From: Blautia sp.
GTDB lineage: Bacteria; Bacillota; Clostridia; Lachnospirales; Lachnospiraceae
Assembly (NCBI GenBank): GCA_029257775.1
Contig: JARIAQ010000008.1
Coordinates: forward strand, 1-36,255
Length of the DNA stretch: 36,255 bases
Reading direction: 5' to 3'
This document shows positions 8,238 through 16,860 of this stretch, piece by piece (the stretch's first letter is position 1; each line of letters opens with the position of its first letter). Position numbers and translations under genes: made by a program. The notes beneath the pieces are model-generated. The model did no database searches. It saw only the letters and a list, made by a program, of their open reading frames with translations, and was not told where the DNA came from.

Positions 8238-9722
8238 ATGATTATGCGTTCATGTGGAATACTTCTTCATATTACCAGTATTCCCTCTAAATTTGGAATT
8301 GGAACATTGGGAAAAGAAGCTTTTGAATTTGTGGATTTTTTGAAAGAATCCGGACAGAGGATGTGGCAAATTTTGCCCGTTGGTCCTACTTCCAAAGGAG
8401 ATTCTCCTTATCAGTCTTTTTCATCATTTGCAGGTAATCCATTGCTGATAGATTTGGAAAGATTAATAGAATTAGGATTACTCAGTTATGAAAAGGTAGA
8501 AGCAGTAGATTTTGGAGAAAATACAGAAAGAGTGGATTATGAGAAGCAATTTTTGAATAAATATCCACTTTTATATGATGCATTTCAGGTTTTTAAAGAG
8601 CAGGATAATTGGACAGAATATCATGAATTCTGTAATCGTCAAAAAGAATGGCTGCAAGATTATGCTCTATTTATGGCTTTAAAGTATTATTTTAACCAAA
8701 AACCTTGGAGTCAATGGGATGAAGATATAAAAAGAAGAGATTTATCGGCAATTAAAAAATATGAAAAATTATTGAAAGATGATATAGAATACTGGAAATT
8801 TATTCAGTTTTTGTTTGATTGTCAATGGCGAGAATTAAAAGAGTATGCTAATTTGCAGAATATTAAAATAATAGGTGATATTCCTATTTATTTATCTTAT
8901 GATAGTGTAGAGGTATGGACTCAGCCAGAAATATTTGAGTTGGATGAAGATTTAAATCCGAAGAGAGTAGCAGGATATCCTCCAGATGATACGTTTTCAA
9001 AAACAGGACAATTATGGGGAAACCCTCTTTATTGTTGGGATGTTATGAGGCAGGATGGATATAAATGGTGGATTAACCGGATTCGCTTTTCTTTGGAACT
9101 ATACGATGTTTTGCGCATTGATCATTTTCGAGGATTTGATAGTTATTATGCTGTTCCTTTTAAAGATAAAACAGCAGAGCATGGTGAATGGTGCCCGGGA
9201 CCAGGAAAAGAATTATTTAAAGCTATTAAATCGGTGTTGGGTGATCTTCCTATTATTGCGGAGGATTTAGGACTGAAAACGGAAAATGTAAAAGAAATGT
9301 TGGATTATAGTGGGTATCCGGGAATGAATGTAATGGAGTATGCTTTTTCCGGTGAAGAAGAGAGTGATGATATGCCCCATAATTTTAAAAAAAATAGTGT
9401 AACCTATTTGGGGACTCATGATAATGATACGTGTCTTGGATATCTAAAAAACCAAAGTGAGGATTCTTTGCAATTTATTCAAAAATATTTAGGTACTTCA
9501 GACGTTATATCCAGCGTATGGGGTATGATTCGCTCTGCGTATGCATCGGTATCTGAATTAGTGGTTATTCAAATGCAGGATTTTTTAGAATTGGGATCAG
9601 AATCTCGAATGAATTATCCATCAACTTTATCGGGAAACTGGACTTGGAGAATGAAAAAAGAAGATTTGAATCATGAATTAGCTATGCGAATAAAGGAATT
9701 AGCTTCGGTATATTTTCGGTAA
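8238..9722 (+). CDS. malQ: 4-alpha-glucanotransferase (amylomaltase), GH77
   Basis: This cytoplasmic enzyme of 494 residues transfers maltosyl units between malto-oligosaccharides, releasing glucose and making longer chains for phosphorylase. GH77 signatures are complete: GQRMWQILPVGPT near residue 35, GDIPIYLSYDSVEVW, RIDHFRGFDSYYAVP with nucleophile D295, IIAEDLG with acid/base E342, and THDNDT with D395; these match the spacing of the Thermus enzyme. AAGGAG lies five bases before the ATG at 8238. It closes the maltodextrin operon, 14 bases after the second permease, and is followed by a strong terminator. Confidence 0.95.
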   Translation: MIMRSCGILLHITSIPSKFGIGTLGKEAFEFVDFLKESGQRMWQILPVGPTSKGDSPYQSFSSFAGNPLLIDLERLIELGLLSYEKVEAVDFGENTERVDYEKQFLNKYPLLYDAFQVFKEQDNWTEYHEFCNRQKEWLQDYALFMALKYYFNQKPWSQWDEDIKRRDLSAIKKYEKLLKDDIEYWKFIQFLFDCQWRELKEYANLQNIKIIGDIPIYLSYDSVEVWTQPEIFELDEDLNPKRVAGYPPDDTFSKTGQLWGNPLYCWDVMRQDGYKWWINRIRFSLELYDVLRIDHFRGFDSYYAVPFKDKTAEHGEWCPGPGKELFKAIKSVLGDLPIIAEDLGLKTENVKEMLDYSGYPGMNVMEYAFSGEEESDDMPHNFKKNSVTYLGTHDNDTCLGYLKNQSEDSLQFIQKYLGTSDVISSVWGMIRSAYASVSELVVIQMQDFLELGSESRMNYPSTLSGNWTWRMKKEDLNHELAMRIKELASVYFR

Positions 9723-9740
9723 TTTTAAATTGATGTATTC

Positions 9741-9784
9741 GGCCAGATTAGATTAGTAAGAGAATCTAATCTGGTCGAGTTTTT
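9741..9784 (+). terminator. Rho-independent terminator of the maltodextrin operon
   Basis: A 14-bp stem (9741-9754 with 9763-9776, one G-U pair) is closed by an 8-base loop and followed by GAGTTTTTATTT. Confidence 0.85.
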
Positions 9785-9804
9785 ATTTGGATAAGAAAAA
9801 GAAG

Positions 9805-9840
9805 GTCAATATTGACAAATATTTTAGATTTTCTTACAAT
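9805..9840 (+). promoter_or_regulatory. ygbA promoter with palindrome on the -35
   Basis: TTGACA (9812-9817) and TACAAT (9835-9840) are spaced by 17 bases, a very strong promoter. The -35 is embedded in a perfect 12-bp palindrome GTCAATATTGAC (9805-9816). The GTTAG-type box at 9841 begins directly after the -10. Confidence 0.8.
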
Positions 9841-9858
9841 AGTTAGTGTTCTCTAATT
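9841..9858. promoter_or_regulatory. GTTAG-N6-CTAA box 1 (ygbA)
   Basis: AGTTAG-TGTTCT-CTAATT is an inverted repeat with one mismatch, placed on the transcription start of the ygbA promoter. It has the same half-site and six-base centre as the zupT palindrome. Confidence 0.65.
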
Positions 9859-9886
9859 ATAAAAGAGAGCTATTTTTTGCATGATT

Positions 9887-9904
9887 AGTTAGAAAATGCT
9901 AACT
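9887..9904. promoter_or_regulatory. GTTAG-N6-CTAAC box 2 (ygbA leader)
   Basis: AGTTAG-AAAATG-CTAACT is a perfect 6+6 inverted repeat, 46 bases after box 1 and 38 bases before the ygbA start codon. Two boxes in tandem suggest cooperative repression. Confidence 0.65.
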
Positions 9905-9942
9905 TATGAAATGGAAATAATAGAAAAATAGGAGAATTTGTC

Positions 9943-10272
9943 ATGAAAGATTTGAATAGAAAGCGGGAAAATGAGATTAATGTAGTTGGCCAAATGATTC
10001 ATATTTATTGTAAAGGGAAACATGGTAGGAAAGAGTTGTGTCCAGAATGTCAGGAACTTTATGATTATGCGGTACAACGAGTGAATCACTGTCCTTTTAT
10101 GGAGACAAAAACCTTTTGCTCCAACTGTAAGGTTCATTGTTATAAACCAGTGTATCGAGAAAAAATTAAAGAAGTTATGCGCTATGCAGGGCCTCGAATG
10201 CTTTTTGTGCATCCGGTTATGGCAATCAAACATGTAATAGAGATGCAGAAAGAGAAAAGAAAACAGAAGTAA
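9943..10272 (+). CDS. ygbA: YgbA family protein (nitrous oxide-stimulated promoter family)
   Basis: This encodes 109 residues and matches the YgbA/PF11756 pattern well: IYCKGKHG, LCPECQELYDYAVQR, HCPF, then CSNCKVHCYKP and MRYAGPRMLFVHP. Eight Cys (C23, C33, C36, C50, C59, C62, C66 and others in register) suggest Fe-S or Zn binding. In enterobacteria ygbA belongs to the NsrR/Fur-controlled response to nitric oxide and iron, but its biochemical role is not settled. AGGAG precedes the ATG. Here it is the first gene before a DtxR/NEAT-like regulator and a heme importer, under a promoter with GTTAG boxes, which fits an iron- or heme-responsive setting. Confidence 0.9.
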   Translation: MKDLNRKRENEINVVGQMIHIYCKGKHGRKELCPECQELYDYAVQRVNHCPFMETKTFCSNCKVHCYKPVYREKIKEVMRYAGPRMLFVHPVMAIKHVIEMQKEKRKQK

Positions 10273-10295
10273 TTGGGATAGGGAGGTAAGTGCGT

Positions 10296-11075
10296 GTGTC
10301 AAATTTACAGGAAATGTTACGGCTTAGAGTATTACTGGCTTTTTTAAAAGAAGATGAAAGTTGTACAGTTATGGGGATTTCCCGTAGTTTAAATGAAACG
10401 AAACAGAATATTAGCAGAACCATTATTATGCTGGAACAAGAAGGAATGGTGGATAGGAAAGATATAAGACATCCAATACTTACAGAGCAGGGACGGAATA
10501 CGGCAAAGTTATATTCGCAAAAAATGGAAATTGGAATGCAGTTTCTAAATGGAGAAGGCGTAAGTATGGAAAATGCCAGAAAAGATGCCTGTTACTGGGC
10601 CATTCATAATACAGAAGAGACCATGGATATTTTTCGGAAATGTGAGGAGAAGAATGAAGTAAAGAGGCAGATGAAATCAAAACCTTGCTTTTCAGGAACT
10701 ACTTTTATTAAAAATTTAAAAGATGGGGTTTATCATTTTCCTTTTTTTATACATGGTGGAACTGATATTGCCATTAATAAATGTTTTGAACATCCGTGTG
10801 TCTGTCATGTAGAAAATGGAAACGGAAGTATTCTGGTAAGGCTTTTACAAAATGAGAAGCAAAAAATAAAAACAATACAATATTTTGATCATGGTATTTA
10901 TATATCACTTGAGAAAAGTGGGGATATTTTTTCTTTCCCAGTGGAAATATTAGAATTTGTGAACTTTGGTGAGGGGCAAGGACAGGTTATTTATGGGACA
11001 GCTTATCTGAAAATACAATGTGAGTATCTGGGAGAAAAACAAGAAAAAAACGTGATGTTTACAATTATTTTATAA
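10296..11075 (+). CDS. DtxR-like winged-helix regulator with C-terminal NEAT-like domain
   Basis: This encodes 259 residues in two parts. Residues 1-70 look like a DtxR/MntR winged helix (GISRSLNETKQNISRTIIML, then LTEQGR), and 70-115 like the DtxR dimerization region, including DAC-Y-W at 97-101. Aligned by eye to DtxR, metal ligands H79, E83, H98, E105 and H106 fall on M77, M81, R95, A102 and I103; only the Cys (C99) remains. From residue ~140 the chain resembles the NEAT domains of the next gene: NLKDGVYHF against NLKDGIYEV, HVENG against RVENG, FSFP, and a closing AYLKIQCEY. It contains a Cys/His patch HPCVCH (166-171). There is no signal peptide, so it should be cytosolic. GTG at 10296 is preferred: GGGAGG ends nine bases before it but only three before the GTG at 10290. 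A role as heme- or iron-responsive regulator is inferred. Confidence 0.75.
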   Translation: MSNLQEMLRLRVLLAFLKEDESCTVMGISRSLNETKQNISRTIIMLEQEGMVDRKDIRHPILTEQGRNTAKLYSQKMEIGMQFLNGEGVSMENARKDACYWAIHNTEETMDIFRKCEEKNEVKRQMKSKPCFSGTTFIKNLKDGVYHFPFFIHGGTDIAINKCFEHPCVCHVENGNGSILVRLLQNEKQKIKTIQYFDHGIYISLEKSGDIFSFPVEILEFVNFGEGQGQVIYGTAYLKIQCEYLGEKQEKNVMFTIIL

Positions 11076-11096
11076 GAAAGTCGCAAAAACAGGACA
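11074..11096 (+). repeat. Direct repeat copy 1, upstream of the NEAT operon
   Basis: These 23 bases begin AAGAAAGTCGCA at the stop codon of the regulator gene and match the copy at 11151-11173 at 20 of 23 positions. The two lie 77 bases apart in the gap before the wall NEAT gene and may be protein-binding sites. Confidence 0.6.
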
Positions 11097-11150
11097 GAGG
11101 AGATTCTAAGAATTTATGCAATCTGAATAGGATACTAGGAATAATATAGG

Positions 11151-11173
11151 AAGAAAGTCGCAGAAATACGACA
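11151..11173 (+). repeat. Direct repeat copy 2, upstream of the NEAT operon
   Basis: This is the second copy of the 23-base element. It contains a small inverted repeat, GTCG-CAGAAATA-CGAC; copy 1 keeps the left arm and part of the right. No clear vegetative promoter was found in 11076-11304, although TTGCTA (11176) and TATGAT (11201) lie 19 bases apart. Confidence 0.6.
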
Positions 11174-11254
11174 AATTGCTATGTGAAAAATAAAAAAAAT
11201 TATGATACTCTGAGTTTGCTTAGAAAATAACTAAAGCATTTTTTTTAGTGCATA

Positions 11255-11272
11255 AGTTAGTTAATACTAATG
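11255..11272. promoter_or_regulatory. GTTAG-N6-CTAA box upstream of the NEAT operon
   Basis: AGTTAG-TTAATA-CTAATG keeps the left half exactly and CTAA of the right half, at the same six-base spacing as at zupT and ygbA. It is 33 bases before the start codon at 11305 and is flanked by TGCAT on both sides. Confidence 0.5.
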
Positions 11273-11304
11273 CATGAATAGAACCATAAGGGAGGAATTA
11301 CAAC

Positions 11305-13401
11305 ATGAGAAACGTTAAAAGATTTTTGAAACGTGGACTTGCAAGTGCACTTGCAGTTGTTATGATGATGGGAAACAGTGCACTGTATGTATCTGCAGCA
11401 GAATCATCAGAGGCTGGAAAATATAATGTTCCAGTAAAAAATCTGGAAAGTGGAGCGCCGATATCTGCTGTAAATGAAGCTTTTAAAAACGCTTTTGGAA
11501 CAAATGTGTTATTAGAAGTTAAGGACGATGGAACAAAGACAGCAACTGTTCAATTACAGCATATGATTATTAATATCATGGGTGAATACCATGCAAACAT
11601 AAAAACTATTGAGAATGCACAGTACACTAAAACTAAGATAGAAAAAGTGTCCAAGACATTTGGAGATCCAACAACAGAAGATATTGAAGTGCCGTCAGAG
11701 GCAATTATTACATTGCCCCAGCCAGATCAAAATGGTGGATATCCTATTACACTTACAGTAGATTTTATGGATAATTTTATGGGAGGAGGCAATCCTTATC
11801 CAACAGAAGTAACATTGACTTTAGATATGGATCGAGCAGAAGCAACACCTGCAGATTATTCAAAGGTTGATGCCGCTCTTGCAAAGGTACCTTCTGATTT
11901 GACTGGATTTACAGAAGAATCTGTGACGAAATTAAATGATGTAGTTGGTAAAGTAGATCGAACATTAAAATCCAATCAACAGAAATTAGTAGATCAGATG
12001 GCAGTAGATATTGAAGAAGCAATTAAAGGATTGCAGAAAAAACCAGAGCCAAGCCCAGAACCAAATCCAGAGCCAAATCCAGACCAAAAACCACAGGAAT
12101 TAGCAGATGGTGTGTATAAAATTCCAGTAGCTCTTTGGAATGCAACAAGTGATCAGCCATCTATGGCAGCATCTGCTTTTGATGAAATGGCAAAGGTTCG
12201 TGTAGAAAACGGAAAAGCAGTTATGTATGTTTCTACAAAACCAATGTCTTTAGGACCAATTGTTGCAAGTTTACAGGAAATGAAAGTTTATGATTTAAAT
12301 GATAATTATGAGGATGCAGTGGTAGAAGAAAAATCTGAAGATGGAAATCCAACATTATTTTCCTTTACACTTCCACACACACAGGAATATATCAAAGTAA
12401 TGGTTAATCCTCATATTGATATGATGGGAAATAAAGATATTCCTGCAAGAATTAAAGTTAATTATGAAGCAAAAGAAAATATTACTGCAGATTATTCAAA
12501 AGTTGATGCCGCTCTTGCTAAAGTTCCTACAGACTTAAGTGGTTACACAAAAGAATCTGTAGAAAAATTAGAAAAAGCAGTAAATGCAGTAGTAAGATTA
12601 CTTGAAAACAGTCAGCAGTCAGAAGTGGATCAGATGGCAGCAGATATTGAAGAAGCAATTAAAGGCTTAGAGAAAAAACCAACAGAACCACAGAAACCAA
12701 CAGAACCACAAAAACCAACAGAACCACAAAAACCAACAGAACCACAGAAACCAGCAGAACCACAGAAACCAGCAGAACCACAGAAACCTTCAGAAAGTGA
12801 AGTGTTAGATAAGAATAATCTTAAAGATGGAATTTATGAAGTAGCTGTTGATTTATTTAATGCAACAAAAGATCAGCCATCTATGGCAGCACAGTCTTTA
12901 TTAAGCCCAGCAAAAATTGTTGTAAAAAATGGCGTAAAGACAATGTATGTTTACACAAAACCAATGACATTTGGAAGTATTACAGCAAGCCTTCAGGAAA
13001 TGCGTGTATTTGACAAAAATGGAAATTATAAAGATGCTGTGGTAGCAGAAAGTAAAGATGGAAATCCAACATGTTTTTCATTTGAGCTTCCACATATGGA
13101 TCAGTTTATTGATGTACAGGTAAATCCACATGTAGAAATGATGGGAAATCAGTTTTTAGATGCAAGAATTCGTGTTCAATATAATACATTAACTCAGATT
13201 TCAAAAGATCCACAGGATGCATCTATAAATGTTGTAAAACCTAGTTCATCAAGTGTGAAACCAGGCAGTTCCTCAACAAATTCAAAAACAAATCCAAAAA
13301 CAGGAGATTCTTCTGAAGTTGCATTATATATGAGTCTTATCTTTGTGTCAGCTGCATTGACTTTGACAGTGTATAGAAGAAGAACTCATAAGGAGAAATA
13401 A
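11305..13401 (+). CDS. Cell-wall-anchored protein with three NEAT domains and two FIVAR domains
   Basis: This encodes 698 residues. The order is signal peptide (1-31, cut near YVSA-A); NEAT1 ~38-177; FIVAR ~183-244; Pro/Glu linker; NEAT2 ~266-389; FIVAR ~396-457; six PTEPQK/PAEPQK repeats; NEAT3 ~506-628; Ser-rich stretch; sorting motif NPKTG at 663-667; membrane helix; basic tail RRRTHKEK. NEAT domains bind heme at Gram-positive surfaces. The canonical Y-x-x-x-Y of the last strands is not seen; NEAT2 and NEAT3 instead share PSMAA (M287, M527) and VNPHxxMMGN (M373/M374, M612/M613), suggesting Met ligands. NEAT1 is divergent. GGAGG precedes the ATG. It is first in the heme-relay operon, and the next gene begins two bases after its stop. 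Sortase attachment to the wall is inferred from the NPKTG motif. Confidence 0.9.
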   Translation: MRNVKRFLKRGLASALAVVMMMGNSALYVSAAESSEAGKYNVPVKNLESGAPISAVNEAFKNAFGTNVLLEVKDDGTKTATVQLQHMIINIMGEYHANIKTIENAQYTKTKIEKVSKTFGDPTTEDIEVPSEAIITLPQPDQNGGYPITLTVDFMDNFMGGGNPYPTEVTLTLDMDRAEATPADYSKVDAALAKVPSDLTGFTEESVTKLNDVVGKVDRTLKSNQQKLVDQMAVDIEEAIKGLQKKPEPSPEPNPEPNPDQKPQELADGVYKIPVALWNATSDQPSMAASAFDEMAKVRVENGKAVMYVSTKPMSLGPIVASLQEMKVYDLNDNYEDAVVEEKSEDGNPTLFSFTLPHTQEYIKVMVNPHIDMMGNKDIPARIKVNYEAKENITADYSKVDAALAKVPTDLSGYTKESVEKLEKAVNAVVRLLENSQQSEVDQMAADIEEAIKGLEKKPTEPQKPTEPQKPTEPQKPTEPQKPAEPQKPAEPQKPSESEVLDKNNLKDGIYEVAVDLFNATKDQPSMAAQSLLSPAKIVVKNGVKTMYVYTKPMTFGSITASLQEMRVFDKNGNYKDAVVAESKDGNPTCFSFELPHMDQFIDVQVNPHVEMMGNQFLDARIRVQYNTLTQISKDPQDASINVVKPSSSSVKPGSSSTNSKTNPKTGDSSEVALYMSLIFVSAALTLTVYRRRTHKEK
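12679..12786 (+). repeat. Six tandem 18-bp units encoding PTEPQK / PAEPQK
   Basis: The unit CCAACAGAACCACAGAAA occurs six times with few changes and is followed by a degenerate seventh start. It encodes a stiff Pro-rich spacer before NEAT3. Near-identical units make copy-number change by slippage likely. Confidence 0.95.
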
Positions 13402-13403
13402 AA

Positions 13404-14138
13404 ATGAAAAAAATTATCTGTACATTTATGGCATTTACAATGATGATGGTGACACCAATTGTAACAAAGGCCATGGAAAAAGGTGCTTTTGTTGCTGAAG
13501 TAGAAACTTCCTATGCCAATCCAGATACAGGTGTTACTGTAGATGGGGGAACCAATATTGCATTGGGAGACAGCATGTGTGCAAGTATTATGGAAGATCA
13601 GGTACTGATTGAACAAACAGAAGATAAGATGTATGTGACAGCAGGGCTTGGTTTGATGTCAAATGTAAGTGATGTTTCCATGAAAGTGATGAATGCAGAC
13701 GGAGAGTTTAGAGATGTAGAACTGACATTGACAGGATCTTGTGAAAGAGATGGAGATACATGTAACCATTATCGTTTTGAAATGAATCCAGAGGATAAAT
13801 ATTTTAGTCCAGTTATTTTTGTAACTCCTATGGGAAGAAATGTACAGTTTTTTGTGAAAATCAATTATGATTCAGCACAGCCAGGTACTGGGAATTTCGC
13901 CAGTGAGATGATACAGGAAACATCTCAAGAAGTGGAAGAAATTCCAGAAGAAGAAATTGTAGAAGAAGAAAAGGCAGAACCAGAAAAAGTAGAAGAAGAA
14001 AAGCCAGAAGAACCTGTAAAAGAGGCAGAAAAATCTTCTGTTTCAAATTCAAATCCTACAATTTGGATTGGACTGGGCGTATCTGTGGTAGTTCTTGCAG
14101 GAGTAGCAATTTTGATTGTAAAGAAGAAAGGCAAATAA
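13404..14138 (+). CDS. Shp-like membrane-anchored heme-binding protein
   Basis: This encodes 244 residues: signal peptide (1-23), one heme-binding domain (~27-155), an acidic Glu/Pro-rich stalk (~170-212), a membrane helix (~221-239) and tail KKKGK, with no sorting motif. The domain resembles streptococcal Shp: NPDTG-x-x-x-DGG, LGDSMCAS and FVTPMGRNVQFFVKI. Shp binds heme with two methionines; the equivalent residues here would be M58 and M143. C113 and C119 could form a disulfide. In streptococci Shp takes heme from a surface protein and hands it to HtsA; here the upstream neighbour is a wall NEAT protein and the downstream one an HtsA/IsdE-like lipoprotein, the same order of transfer. Similarity was judged by eye from remembered family sequence. 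Confidence 0.85.
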   Translation: MKKIICTFMAFTMMMVTPIVTKAMEKGAFVAEVETSYANPDTGVTVDGGTNIALGDSMCASIMEDQVLIEQTEDKMYVTAGLGLMSNVSDVSMKVMNADGEFRDVELTLTGSCERDGDTCNHYRFEMNPEDKYFSPVIFVTPMGRNVQFFVKINYDSAQPGTGNFASEMIQETSQEVEEIPEEEIVEEEKAEPEKVEEEKPEEPVKEAEKSSVSNSNPTIWIGLGVSVVVLAGVAILIVKKKGK

Positions 14139-14139
14139 G

Positions 14140-15012
14140 ATGAAGAAATTAAAAATTATTTCCCTGCTTTGTGCTTCTGTAATGCTTATGACAGGATGTG
14201 TAGTAAAATCTGGGCCAAAGGATGCAAACGATTCTCAAAGAATTGTGGCAACTTCCGTAGCAACTTGTGAGATTTTAGATAGACTTTCCGTAGATGGGGT
14301 AGTAGGGATTCCGCAAACGGAAAGCTATCAGGTTCCAAAGCGATACGAGGAGGCTACAAAACTTGGCTCCCCCATGGCACCGAATATGGAGATTGTAAAA
14401 TCTTTGAATCCTACAGTAATTCTATCGCCTAATTCTTTAGAAGGAGAATTGAAGCCACAGTATGATGCCATAAATGTAGAATCTTACTTTTTAAATCTGA
14501 AAAGCGTGGAAGGAATGTATCAGTCCATTGAAGATCTTGGGAAAATGTTCCAAAAAGAAGAAGAGGCAGAAAAGTTAGTTCAAGAATTTGAGGCATTTAA
14601 AGAAGAATATGCTGCAAATATTCAGGGGAAAGAAGCACCATCTGTATTGATTTTGATGGGTCTTCCAGGGGCTTATGTAGTAGCGACAGAGAGTAGCTAT
14701 GTAGGCAATCTGGTAAAGCTTGCAGGTGGAGAAAATGTATATGGTGATGGAGAAGGAAAAGACTTTTTAAATGCCAATACAGAGGATATGTTGGAAAAGA
14801 ATCCTGATATTATTTTAAGAACTTCTCATGCAATGCCGGAACAGGTAAAGATTATGTTTGCAGATGAGTTTAAAAATAATGATATTTGGAAACATTTTCA
14901 GGCAGTGCAGAACGATAAAGTGTATGATTTGGATCATGAAAAATTTGGCATGAGTGCCACATTTCGATATCCTGAAGCTTTAGAAGAATTACAGCCAATT
15001 CTTTATCCATAA
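14140..15012 (+). CDS. isdE: Heme ABC transporter substrate-binding lipoprotein (IsdE/HtsA-like)
   Basis: This encodes 290 residues, a class III (helical-backbone) binding protein with lipobox LMTGC (C20). The stretch LGSPMAPNMEIVKSLNPTVI is characteristic of IsdE/HtsA heme receptors, whose heme is bound by one Met and one His; M79 here stands in that Met position and H230 (RTSHAMPEQV) is the likely His. Further family sequence follows at NDIWKHF and FGMSATFRYPEAL. The start codon lies one base after the previous stop. It would receive heme from the Shp-like protein and pass it to the FecCD permease. The downstream gap contains a hairpin that may lower expression of the permease relative to this receptor. 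Confidence 0.92.
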   Translation: MKKLKIISLLCASVMLMTGCVVKSGPKDANDSQRIVATSVATCEILDRLSVDGVVGIPQTESYQVPKRYEEATKLGSPMAPNMEIVKSLNPTVILSPNSLEGELKPQYDAINVESYFLNLKSVEGMYQSIEDLGKMFQKEEEAEKLVQEFEAFKEEYAANIQGKEAPSVLILMGLPGAYVVATESSYVGNLVKLAGGENVYGDGEGKDFLNANTEDMLEKNPDIILRTSHAMPEQVKIMFADEFKNNDIWKHFQAVQNDKVYDLDHEKFGMSATFRYPEALEELQPILYP

Positions 15013-15101: not shown

Positions 15102-16094
15102 TTGATTAGCAAGAAACAAAAGGTAGTCTGTTTTGTAGTTACTGCAATAGGACTCATGTTATTATTTTTGGTGGCAGTAAATACAGGAAGTATTAAAGTT
15201 ACACCATGGGAGTTGTTTCGTGGACTTTTTATTGAATATGATCAAAATGTTGAAGCAATTTACGATTTAAGGATTCCAAGAATTTTGATTGCTATGACAG
15301 GTGGAGCCGCAACAGCAGTATCTGGAGTATTATTGCAGGCAGTTATGAAAAACCCTCTGGCAGATCCGGGGATTATTGGTATTAGTTCTGGAGCAAGCCT
15401 GATGGCTGTTTTAATTACGGCATTTGCGCCATCTCTTTTTTTTGTTACACCATTATTTGCGTTTTTAGGTGGGATGGCAGCTTTTTTATTGGTATATAGC
15501 CTTTCTTGGAAAGATGGATTGTCACCTCTTCGTATTATTCTTGTGGGGGTAGCTGTTAATGCGGCTTTGACAGGTCTTATGAATGCTTTTAATAGCGGAA
15601 CAGGAAGTACATTTTCTGGCGCTGCCAATATTGTGAATGGTAATATTACAATGAAAACTTGGGGAGATTTTACTACGCTGATTGTTTATACAGTAATTGG
15701 TTTACTTGCGTCTGTATTTGTACTGGAGCAATGTAACCTTTTGGCATTGGAAGATAAGACGGCAGCAAGTTTGGGAATCCATGTGAATAGAAATCGTATG
15801 ATTATTTCTGTTATTGCCGTTTTGTTAGCAGGTATTTCTACTGCAATAATTGGTCCTATTAGCTTTTTGGGACTGATTGTACCTCACATTGCAAGACTTT
15901 TAGTAGGTAGTAATCATAAAGTGTTAGTTCCTTATACAATGCTTGCAGGTGCTTTTGTATTTTTACTGGCAGATACGGTGGGAAGAACCATTGCACAGCC
16001 TTATGAAATCAGTGCATCTGTAATTATGTCTGTTGTGGGAGGACCTTTTTTTATCTTGCTGTTGAGGAGGTCAGGAAATAATTATGGAAAATAG
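15102..16094 (+). CDS. FecCD-family heme/iron ABC permease
   Basis: This membrane permease of 330 residues has about ten helices, the usual size for FecCD/BtuC proteins. Family motifs include LRIPRILIAMTGGAATAVSGVLLQAVMKNPLADPGIIGISSGAS near the N-terminus (residues ~55-100), and GPISFLGLIVPHIARLLVGSNHK near ~260. Translation starts at TTG (15102), which has AAGGAGG seven bases upstream. It overlaps the ATPase gene by 11 bases, so the two are coupled. By context it imports heme delivered by the IsdE/HtsA-like lipoprotein; sequence alone would also allow siderophore or cobalamin. Confidence 0.92.
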   Translation: MISKKQKVVCFVVTAIGLMLLFLVAVNTGSIKVTPWELFRGLFIEYDQNVEAIYDLRIPRILIAMTGGAATAVSGVLLQAVMKNPLADPGIIGISSGASLMAVLITAFAPSLFFVTPLFAFLGGMAAFLLVYSLSWKDGLSPLRIILVGVAVNAALTGLMNAFNSGTGSTFSGAANIVNGNITMKTWGDFTTLIVYTVIGLLASVFVLEQCNLLALEDKTAASLGIHVNRNRMIISVIAVLLAGISTAIIGPISFLGLIVPHIARLLVGSNHKVLVPYTMLAGAFVFLLADTVGRTIAQPYEISASVIMSVVGGPFFILLLRRSGNNYGK

Positions 16095-16860
16095 TGTGTT
16101 TTGTGTTAAAGATCTTTCCTTTTCTTATGGAAAACATCAAGTAATTAAAAATATGAATTTTGAGGTTGAAAAAGGGAAGGTTACTACATTGATTGGAGCT
16201 AATGGATGTGGAAAATCAACTTTATTTCATCTTATGACAAGAAACTTGAAGCCAGATCAAGGAGAAATTCTTCTGGAAGGAAAGAATATCAGTCAGTTGA
16301 AATTAAAGGAATTTGCTCGTAAAGCTGCCATTGTACATCAGTATAATACTGCACCAAATGATCTTACGGTAGAGAAGCTGGTTTCTTATGGAAGAGTGCC
16401 TTATCATCGAATTGGAAAATTAAAAGAGACAGAAGAAGAGGAAGAAAAGATTAAATGGGCAATGGAGATTACCAATACATGGAAGTATAAAGATAAGCCA
16501 GTATCTACTCTTTCAGGAGGACAAAAACAAAGGGTATGGATCGCTATGTCTTTGGCTCAAGATGCAGGAATCTTATTTTTGGATGAGCCTACTACCTATT
16601 TGGATGTCAGATACCAGTTGCAGATTTTGAAGCTGATTCGTCGTTTGAATGAGGAATACGGTATTACAGTAATTATGGTATTACATGATATTAATCAGAG
16701 CTTGTATTACAGTGATAATATTTTAGCCATGAAAGATGGTAAAATTATTGCACAGGGAAGACCTCAAGAAGTTATCAGTACAAAGCTTATTAAAGAGGTA
16801 TATGATGTGGACTTGAATTTGATTTATGTGGATAATGTTCCTTTTGTGATACCGGTATAG
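16084..16860 (+). CDS. Heme/iron ABC transporter ATP-binding protein (FecE/HtsC type)
   Basis: This ATPase of 258 residues powers the FecCD importer. Walker A is GANGCGKST (~38-46), the signature is LSGGQKQR (143-150), Walker B is ILFLDEPT (163-170), and the H-loop follows in VLHDINQ. The C-terminus GKIIAQGRPQEVISTKLIKEVYDVD is typical of the FhuC/FecE group. It is the last gene of the heme operon, overlapping the permease by 11 bases and followed by a strong bidirectional terminator. Confidence 0.94.
   Translation: MENSVFCVKDLSFSYGKHQVIKNMNFEVEKGKVTTLIGANGCGKSTLFHLMTRNLKPDQGEILLEGKNISQLKLKEFARKAAIVHQYNTAPNDLTVEKLVSYGRVPYHRIGKLKETEEEEEKIKWAMEITNTWKYKDKPVSTLSGGQKQRVWIAMSLAQDAGILFLDEPTTYLDVRYQLQILKLIRRLNEEYGITVIMVLHDINQSLYYSDNILAMKDGKIIAQGRPQEVISTKLIKEVYDVDLNLIYVDNVPFVIPV

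Follow-up and report, generated by a model that had tools for sequence, protein, structure and literature searches.

We analyzed a 36,255-nucleotide (nt) stretch of a Blautia sp. assembly (GCA_029257775.1, contig JARIAQ010000008.1, positions 1–36,255, forward strand; hereafter "the window"), focusing on a gene at 10296–11075 (+) that encodes a predicted DtxR-type regulator with a C-terminal NEAT domain (hereafter REG; 259 residues from a GTG start, or 261 from an alternative GTG at 10290). Residues ~1–122 (10296–10661, +) form a winged helix and DtxR-type dimerisation helices whose metal ligands are lost, and residues 140–259 (10713–11072, +) make up the NEAT domain, which includes a CFEHPCVCH segment (residues 163–171; 10782–10808, +) that reads G-FEHPC in many relatives. 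Since REG begins directly with the first helix of the winged helix and since no export signal is visible by eye, the protein is presumed to be cytosolic.

The gene map confirms the original prediction that REG lies after ygbA and ahead of a heme importer. ygbA (9943–10272, +; YgbA_NO family, PF11756, E = 6.4e-45), which presumably opens the transcription unit, ends 23 nt before REG. On the other side, a 229-nt gap separates REG from the gene of a cell-wall protein (11305–13401, +) with two NEAT domains (PF05031, E = 3.8e-27 over two stretches) and a sortase B-type sorting signal (TIGR03063, 28.2 bits, cutoff 18.15). This is followed by a Shp-type cell-surface heme-binding protein (13404–14138, +; PF11545, E = 3e-38), an IsdE-type heme-binding lipoprotein (14140–15012, +; TIGR03659, 383.9 bits, cutoff 298.65), a FecCD-type permease (15102–16094, +; PF01032, E = 4.6e-85), and the ATP-binding cassette (ABC) ATPase of the importer (16084–16860, +; PF00005, E = 5.4e-34). 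REG thus has as neighbors the heme-transport genes looked for beside a one-component heme sensor.

NEAT-like C-terminal half of REG

The original prediction described a DtxR-type regulator that had traded its metal site for a NEAT-like domain, and the analysis supports this description. The motifs it named (TEQGR, DACYW, NLKDGVY, VENG, FSF, and LKIQCEY) are all present, with HPCVCH at residues 166–171. The winged-helix DNA-binding domain and DtxR-type dimerisation helices were both recovered. Searched alone against Pfam, REG matched helix-turn-helix families weakly, as it did the dimerisation domain of DtxR (PF02742, E = 0.021). PHROGs returned weak helix-turn-helix matches and nothing else. 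In a search of PDB chains, a profile of 51 family members matched both MntR (E = 8.9e-15) and the NEAT chain 3sik (E = 3.7e-8).

For the C-terminal segment, the comparison with known folds indicated a NEAT beta-sandwich, as far as prediction goes, and a profile of the C-terminal half (45 rows, window left out) matched the NEAT chains 4myp (E = 4.5e-8) and 3sik (E = 4.9e-8) as well as Shr (9w5y, E = 0.0018). L095, a canonical member from Faecalicatena contorta, had a NEAT match from Foldseek, and the best 50 entries of its structural alignment table comprised DtxR-like and MarR rows and no others. The Pfam NEAT model PF05031 matched six of 10 relatives (E = 5.1e-6 to 0.12, all below the cutoff, each match beginning at model position 2–4) and, in a second scan, three of three further relatives (E = 3.4e-5 to 1.8e-4), with a best score among these 13 of 27.4 bits against a curated cutoff of 32.8. 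Aligned with hhalign, the family reached 98.1% with non-regulator NEATs (reversed control, 0.7%) and 98.3% with five canonical NEATs (reversed, 0.35%), and in the window's own genome the regulator profile also reached the wall NEAT (E = 0.0096).

We then considered hidden Markov models (HMMs) run on the 2698 open reading frames (ORFs) of 83 context loci, of L085 and L086, and of the window, with E-values calculated for a nominal 100,000 sequences. The regulator C-half HMM yielded 31 non-regulator matches at E < 0.01. A seed HMM built from the two wall NEATs also found 27 of these at E < 0.2; of the remaining four, one was a paralogue of the regulator and three were pieces of regulators. The C-half HMM had zero matches among 2618 reversed ORFs. 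Conversely, a NEAT HMM widened over three rounds with non-regulator NEATs only reached 48, 55, and 25 of the 80 regulators, and none of 1680 shuffled or reversed copies. An iterated version that had absorbed regulators was not used as evidence, and the analysis was redone with regulators kept out. The resemblance between the C-terminal half and NEAT domains is more than chance.

Several results nevertheless weigh against a NEAT assignment, in particular for the window protein. REG had no PF05031 match at all, it was not reached by NEAT HMMs built without regulators, the two-sequence seed HMM placed none of the 80 regulators below 1e-3 (best, 0.0045), and hhalign gave no match of the family to an alignment of Shp alone (0.4%). 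An unrelated beta-sandwich, or a domain like the SH3/FeoA-like one of DtxR, would account for the lack of a NEAT match when REG is searched alone; with 4myp, 3sik, and Shr all matched in the PDB by the C-half profile, we regard this alternative as highly improbable, as far as prediction can tell. DtxR has an SH3-like domain, in place of which REG carries the NEAT domain. Compared to the surface NEATs of Isd, Hbp, Shr, and Shp, REG shares the fold and an aligned N-terminal half of the form DGxY...S-M-x-N...F..P..L.V, but lacks a visible secretion signal and is fused to a DNA-binding domain.

Spread, descent, and neighborhood of the family

A contig scan of genomes with the single REG sequence recovered no relative; relatives came from a family search and from a query with an alignment. 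In the taxonomic family to which the window belongs, 93 of 397 genomes gave matches, which covered the C-terminal half in 12, the window's included; the others were ordinary DtxR halves or fragments. At the order level, 250 of 392 genomes matched, mostly through ordinary DtxR proteins. Distant members were added at this level and at the class level, where the C-half profile matched 12 of 391 genomes (two of them also in a NEAT surface protein). The C-half profile further matched 7 of 398 at the phylum level (profile A7; two only in ordinary NEAT proteins). Across one genome per species (84,980 species), 71 REG loci were named, from taxa including Diplocloster, Faecalicatena contorta, Eubacterium, Pseudoflavonifractor, Thomasclavelia, and Faecalibacillus; 18 of the 71 (fragments, near-copies, or odd frames) were left out of alignments A5/A6, as were L089 and L134. 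In a few genomes REG seems to be truncated or spread over two frames, through either real loss or an assembly error (L042, 7780–8133, −, in genome G018, where the partial match has E = 6.0e-9; L119; L150; and L133). One single-contig genome outside the class (G1440:C1) holds two distant copies (L173 and L178) ~22 kb apart.

A tree built by a quick search on few columns compared the C-halves of 64 regulators with 68 NEAT domains. The regulators fell on one side of a branch with a Shimodaira–Hasegawa-like approximate likelihood ratio test (SH-aLRT) support of 95, the exception being one long stray NEAT fragment among them. This placement is in line with a single fusion.

At least one gene of the importer, CydDC-like, and ygbA types accompanies the regulator in 60 of the 71 loci; among the 58 loci that span 9 kb or more, this is the case in 54. 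Specifically, a NEAT/Shp/Isd-type importer gene occurs in 48 of the 71, CydDC-like genes in 27 (both halves in 23), and ygbA in 13. In comparison, IsdE was detected in three of 52 genomes chosen as being without REG, one of which was later shown to have a distant REG. CydDC-like heterodimeric ABC transporters lie near REG at L088:2377–5782, L146:7873–11221, L148:9710–13107, and L152:4258–7651, four loci in which ygbA is also present and an Isd importer gene was not found. The L088 pair scores just under the cutoffs (CydD, 404 bits, cutoff 435; CydC, 325.7 bits, cutoff 329.05), and NCBIfam models related to it bear the name heme ABC transporters.

Some distant REGs adjoin a paralogue (L050, L051, L054, L082, L155:5990–6907 (+), L156:2311–3180 (+), and L168:17163–17999 (−)). 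The six that were aligned retain an intact DtxR metal motif (ACRMEHV-like; Fe_dep_repr_C, 58.9 bits in L155), and their C-half matched that of REG (hhalign, 96.6%) and none of the NEAT sets. In these distant relatives, metal-sensing and heme-sensing partners may possibly stand side by side. Some NEAT domains bind protein rather than heme, and the NEAT of REG could likewise be a protein-contact or structural module, in a regulator that needs no small ligand or is paired with another DtxR protein. The tandem partners, with their intact metal motif and related C-half, would fit such a role; we find it unlikely, as most relatives keep a pair of Met at pocket positions (see below) and the window has no tandem DtxR partner gene beside REG.

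Lost metal site and altered putative heme pocket

Metalloregulators such as DtxR, MntR, and IdeR have metal ligands of their own (H77, E99, E102, and H103 in MntR), which in REG correspond by alignment to M77, C99, A102, and I103. The loss of these ligands, as originally predicted, is borne out, and a profile alignment to MntR did not restore them. Among 51 aligned family rows, position 77 is His in two and position 102 is Ala or Ser in 36, i.e., the metal site is dead across the REG family. The one Cys that the original prediction considered kept (C99) is not conserved: L031, a relative 53% identical to REG, has Ser, and the family mostly has Tyr, Leu, or Phe. Given the family-wide loss and the variability of this position, C99 is no remnant to build on.

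In NEAT domains, heme is covered by a 3-10 helix of the Ser-Met type, and in known NEATs the first Tyr of a YxxxY motif is the axial ligand; in Shp and Shr the heme is Met-ligated, and Met favors ferrous heme. Most REG relatives display two Met residues at pocket positions. The SM of the family falls on that of canonical NEATs, and the second Met, in a closing HMPES hairpin, falls on the leading Tyr of YxxxY, although in a low-confidence stretch; we thus propose a Met-ligated heme, as in Shp. All 50 of the aligned relatives have both Met, a count that is biased because the patterns used to locate them were derived from one or the other motif. Over 64 distinct members, window included, SM is present in 59 and the closing xMP in 57, with HMA in two more. 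Among the 12 members that were not picked by motif, both Met occur in seven, L038 has shifted SAM and QMP, and four (the window protein, L031, L037, and L039) lack both. REG itself reads IAINKCF where relatives read SMANxGF, and has K248 in the column of the second Met. The two losses are separate, with SH-aLRT supports of 99 (window and L031) and 98 (L037 and L039).

Without both Met, the window REG would either bind its ligand through a new Cys/His set or do without heme. It is a serious possibility, if not quite an even one, that this protein is no longer a heme sensor, and that CFEHPCxCH gives its NEAT fold a site for a metal or an Fe-S cluster, or that its cysteines sense redox state or nitric oxide (NO). 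REG and L031 group together, with support, inside a set of Met-bearing relatives, and share not only the loss of both Met (REG also lacks the loop before the KY strand) but also CFEHPCxCH, including C163, H166, C168, C170, and H171. In both, ygbA lies directly upstream, a position that fits redox or NO sensing. On the other hand, H166 and C168 are found in many Met-bearing relatives and need not be new ligands, and the window REG still adjoins a heme importer. For the broader family, we lean slightly toward a history in which a surface NEAT was recruited once, in one-component regulators of anaerobic Bacillota, as an intracellular heme receptor using two Met in replacement of the DtxR metal site, after which the Met pair was lost and the fold put to another use in two or more branches, including that of the window.

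GTTAG boxes and proposed regulation

A sigma-70-like promoter, TTGACA-17-TACAAT (11/12), lies upstream of ygbA (9812–9840, +), as a consensus match only: five such matches occur in 9650–11400, against a mean of 7.9 in shuffles. Just past its -10 hexamer is a TTAG-N6-CTAA box (9843–9856), and a GTTAG-N6-CTAAC box (GTTAGAAAATGCTAAC, 9888–9903) stands between promoter and ygbA. A shorter-form box (TTAGTTAATACTAA, 11257–11270) precedes the wall-protein/heme-import operon, and a perfect box (GTTAGTTATAACTAAC, also given as AGGTTAGTTATAACTAACCT; 1621–1636) lies just upstream of a ZIP-family metal transporter gene (780–1598, −). Across 66 loci (971 kb), GTTAG-N6-CTAAC was observed 135 times for 0.3 expected, and every other spacing from 2 to 12 at most twice. 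With one mismatch allowed, the short box showed no excess in the window (24 vs 22.8 expected). A box was found 20–150 nt before REG in 29 of the 63 loci with room, within 600 nt after it in 38, and at either place in 46. These boxes fit REG, as candidate sites short of proof that REG binds them.

The same boxes could belong to an ordinary DtxR-type iron regulator, with REG using other sites or merely competing. Three findings pull in this direction and away from REG: boxes average 8.9 per genome in 30 genomes with REG and are enriched, at 7.0, in 26 taken as REG-less as well; a box is found at the heme importer of the REG-less genome G028; and the window's genome encodes an ordinary DtxR (G000:C28) with an intact ACRMEHV motif. 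Since REG-less genomes carry boxes, another DtxR protein may own them, and a REG-specific reading of the GTTAG box was dropped for this reason. These genome sets are rough controls, as one genome picked as REG-less (G005) has a distant REG. The recognition-helix stretch reads VSRAM in canonical REGs and ordinary DtxRs alike (NISRTI in the window REG), which, along with the frequent boxes just before or after REG, weighs against ownership by the ordinary DtxR, a reading that is plausible but on balance doubtful. Other boxes in the window's genome (L163, 3533; L164, 3569; L165, 3192) occur at two loci that have ABC-type genes and genes judged TetR-like by eye, and ahead of a gene for a protein of 833 residues whose start resembles a signal sequence; the box thus marks a wider regulon.

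Taken together, we consider it likely that REG is a cytosolic repressor dimer of the DtxR kind that uses its NEAT as ligand domain and controls itself, ygbA, and heme transport. The architecture, the family, the dead metal site, the conserved heme neighborhood, and the boxes are computed observations, as firm as prediction can make them, from which we infer box binding, heme binding, repression, and its direction for REG itself. In this one-component scheme, the DtxR/MntR-type module would provide DNA binding and dimerisation, with a dead metal site, and the NEAT the ligand-binding part. A REG dimer would bind boxes of the GTTAG-N6-CTAAC type, both at the ygbA-REG promoter that drives its own gene and at the wall-NEAT/Shp/IsdE importer operon, and would repress both when bound. 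By analogy with DtxR, the liganded form would be the repressor of import. In the family at large, the ligand would most likely be heme, bound in the NEAT pocket through two Met, one from the SM helix and one from the HMPES hairpin, whereas the window REG may bind heme or iron through C163, H166, C168, C170, and H171, or work without heme.

As a proposed cytosolic regulator of heme homeostasis, REG would resemble PefR and HsmR (MarR), HrtR, HatR, and FhtR (TetR), and Irr (Fur). In the portions of two reviews that were covered, these are heme sensors, none of them NEAT-based (PMC12670364, PMC11442138). The main text of a 2014 NEAT survey (PMC4143258) lists LRR, FMN, SLH, FIVAR, LPXTG, YSIRK, and fn3 as extra features and contains none of the terms "DNA-binding", "transcription", or "regulator". 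Among the matches listed by a full-text literature search, none described a NEAT joined to a DNA-binding domain. Within this literature, the evidence points to the REG family as an undescribed intracellular, NEAT-based and heme-responsive switch.

NEAT domains have been described as surface heme chaperones. If the proposed reading is true, an intracellular NEAT on a DNA-binding module would represent a new way to sense heme, and a case of a transport domain turned regulator. For many gut Clostridia, a likely regulator of CydDC-like transport and of the uptake of heme would also be identified, and the Met-bearing and Met-less members would form a natural series in which the question of the ligand is directly testable.
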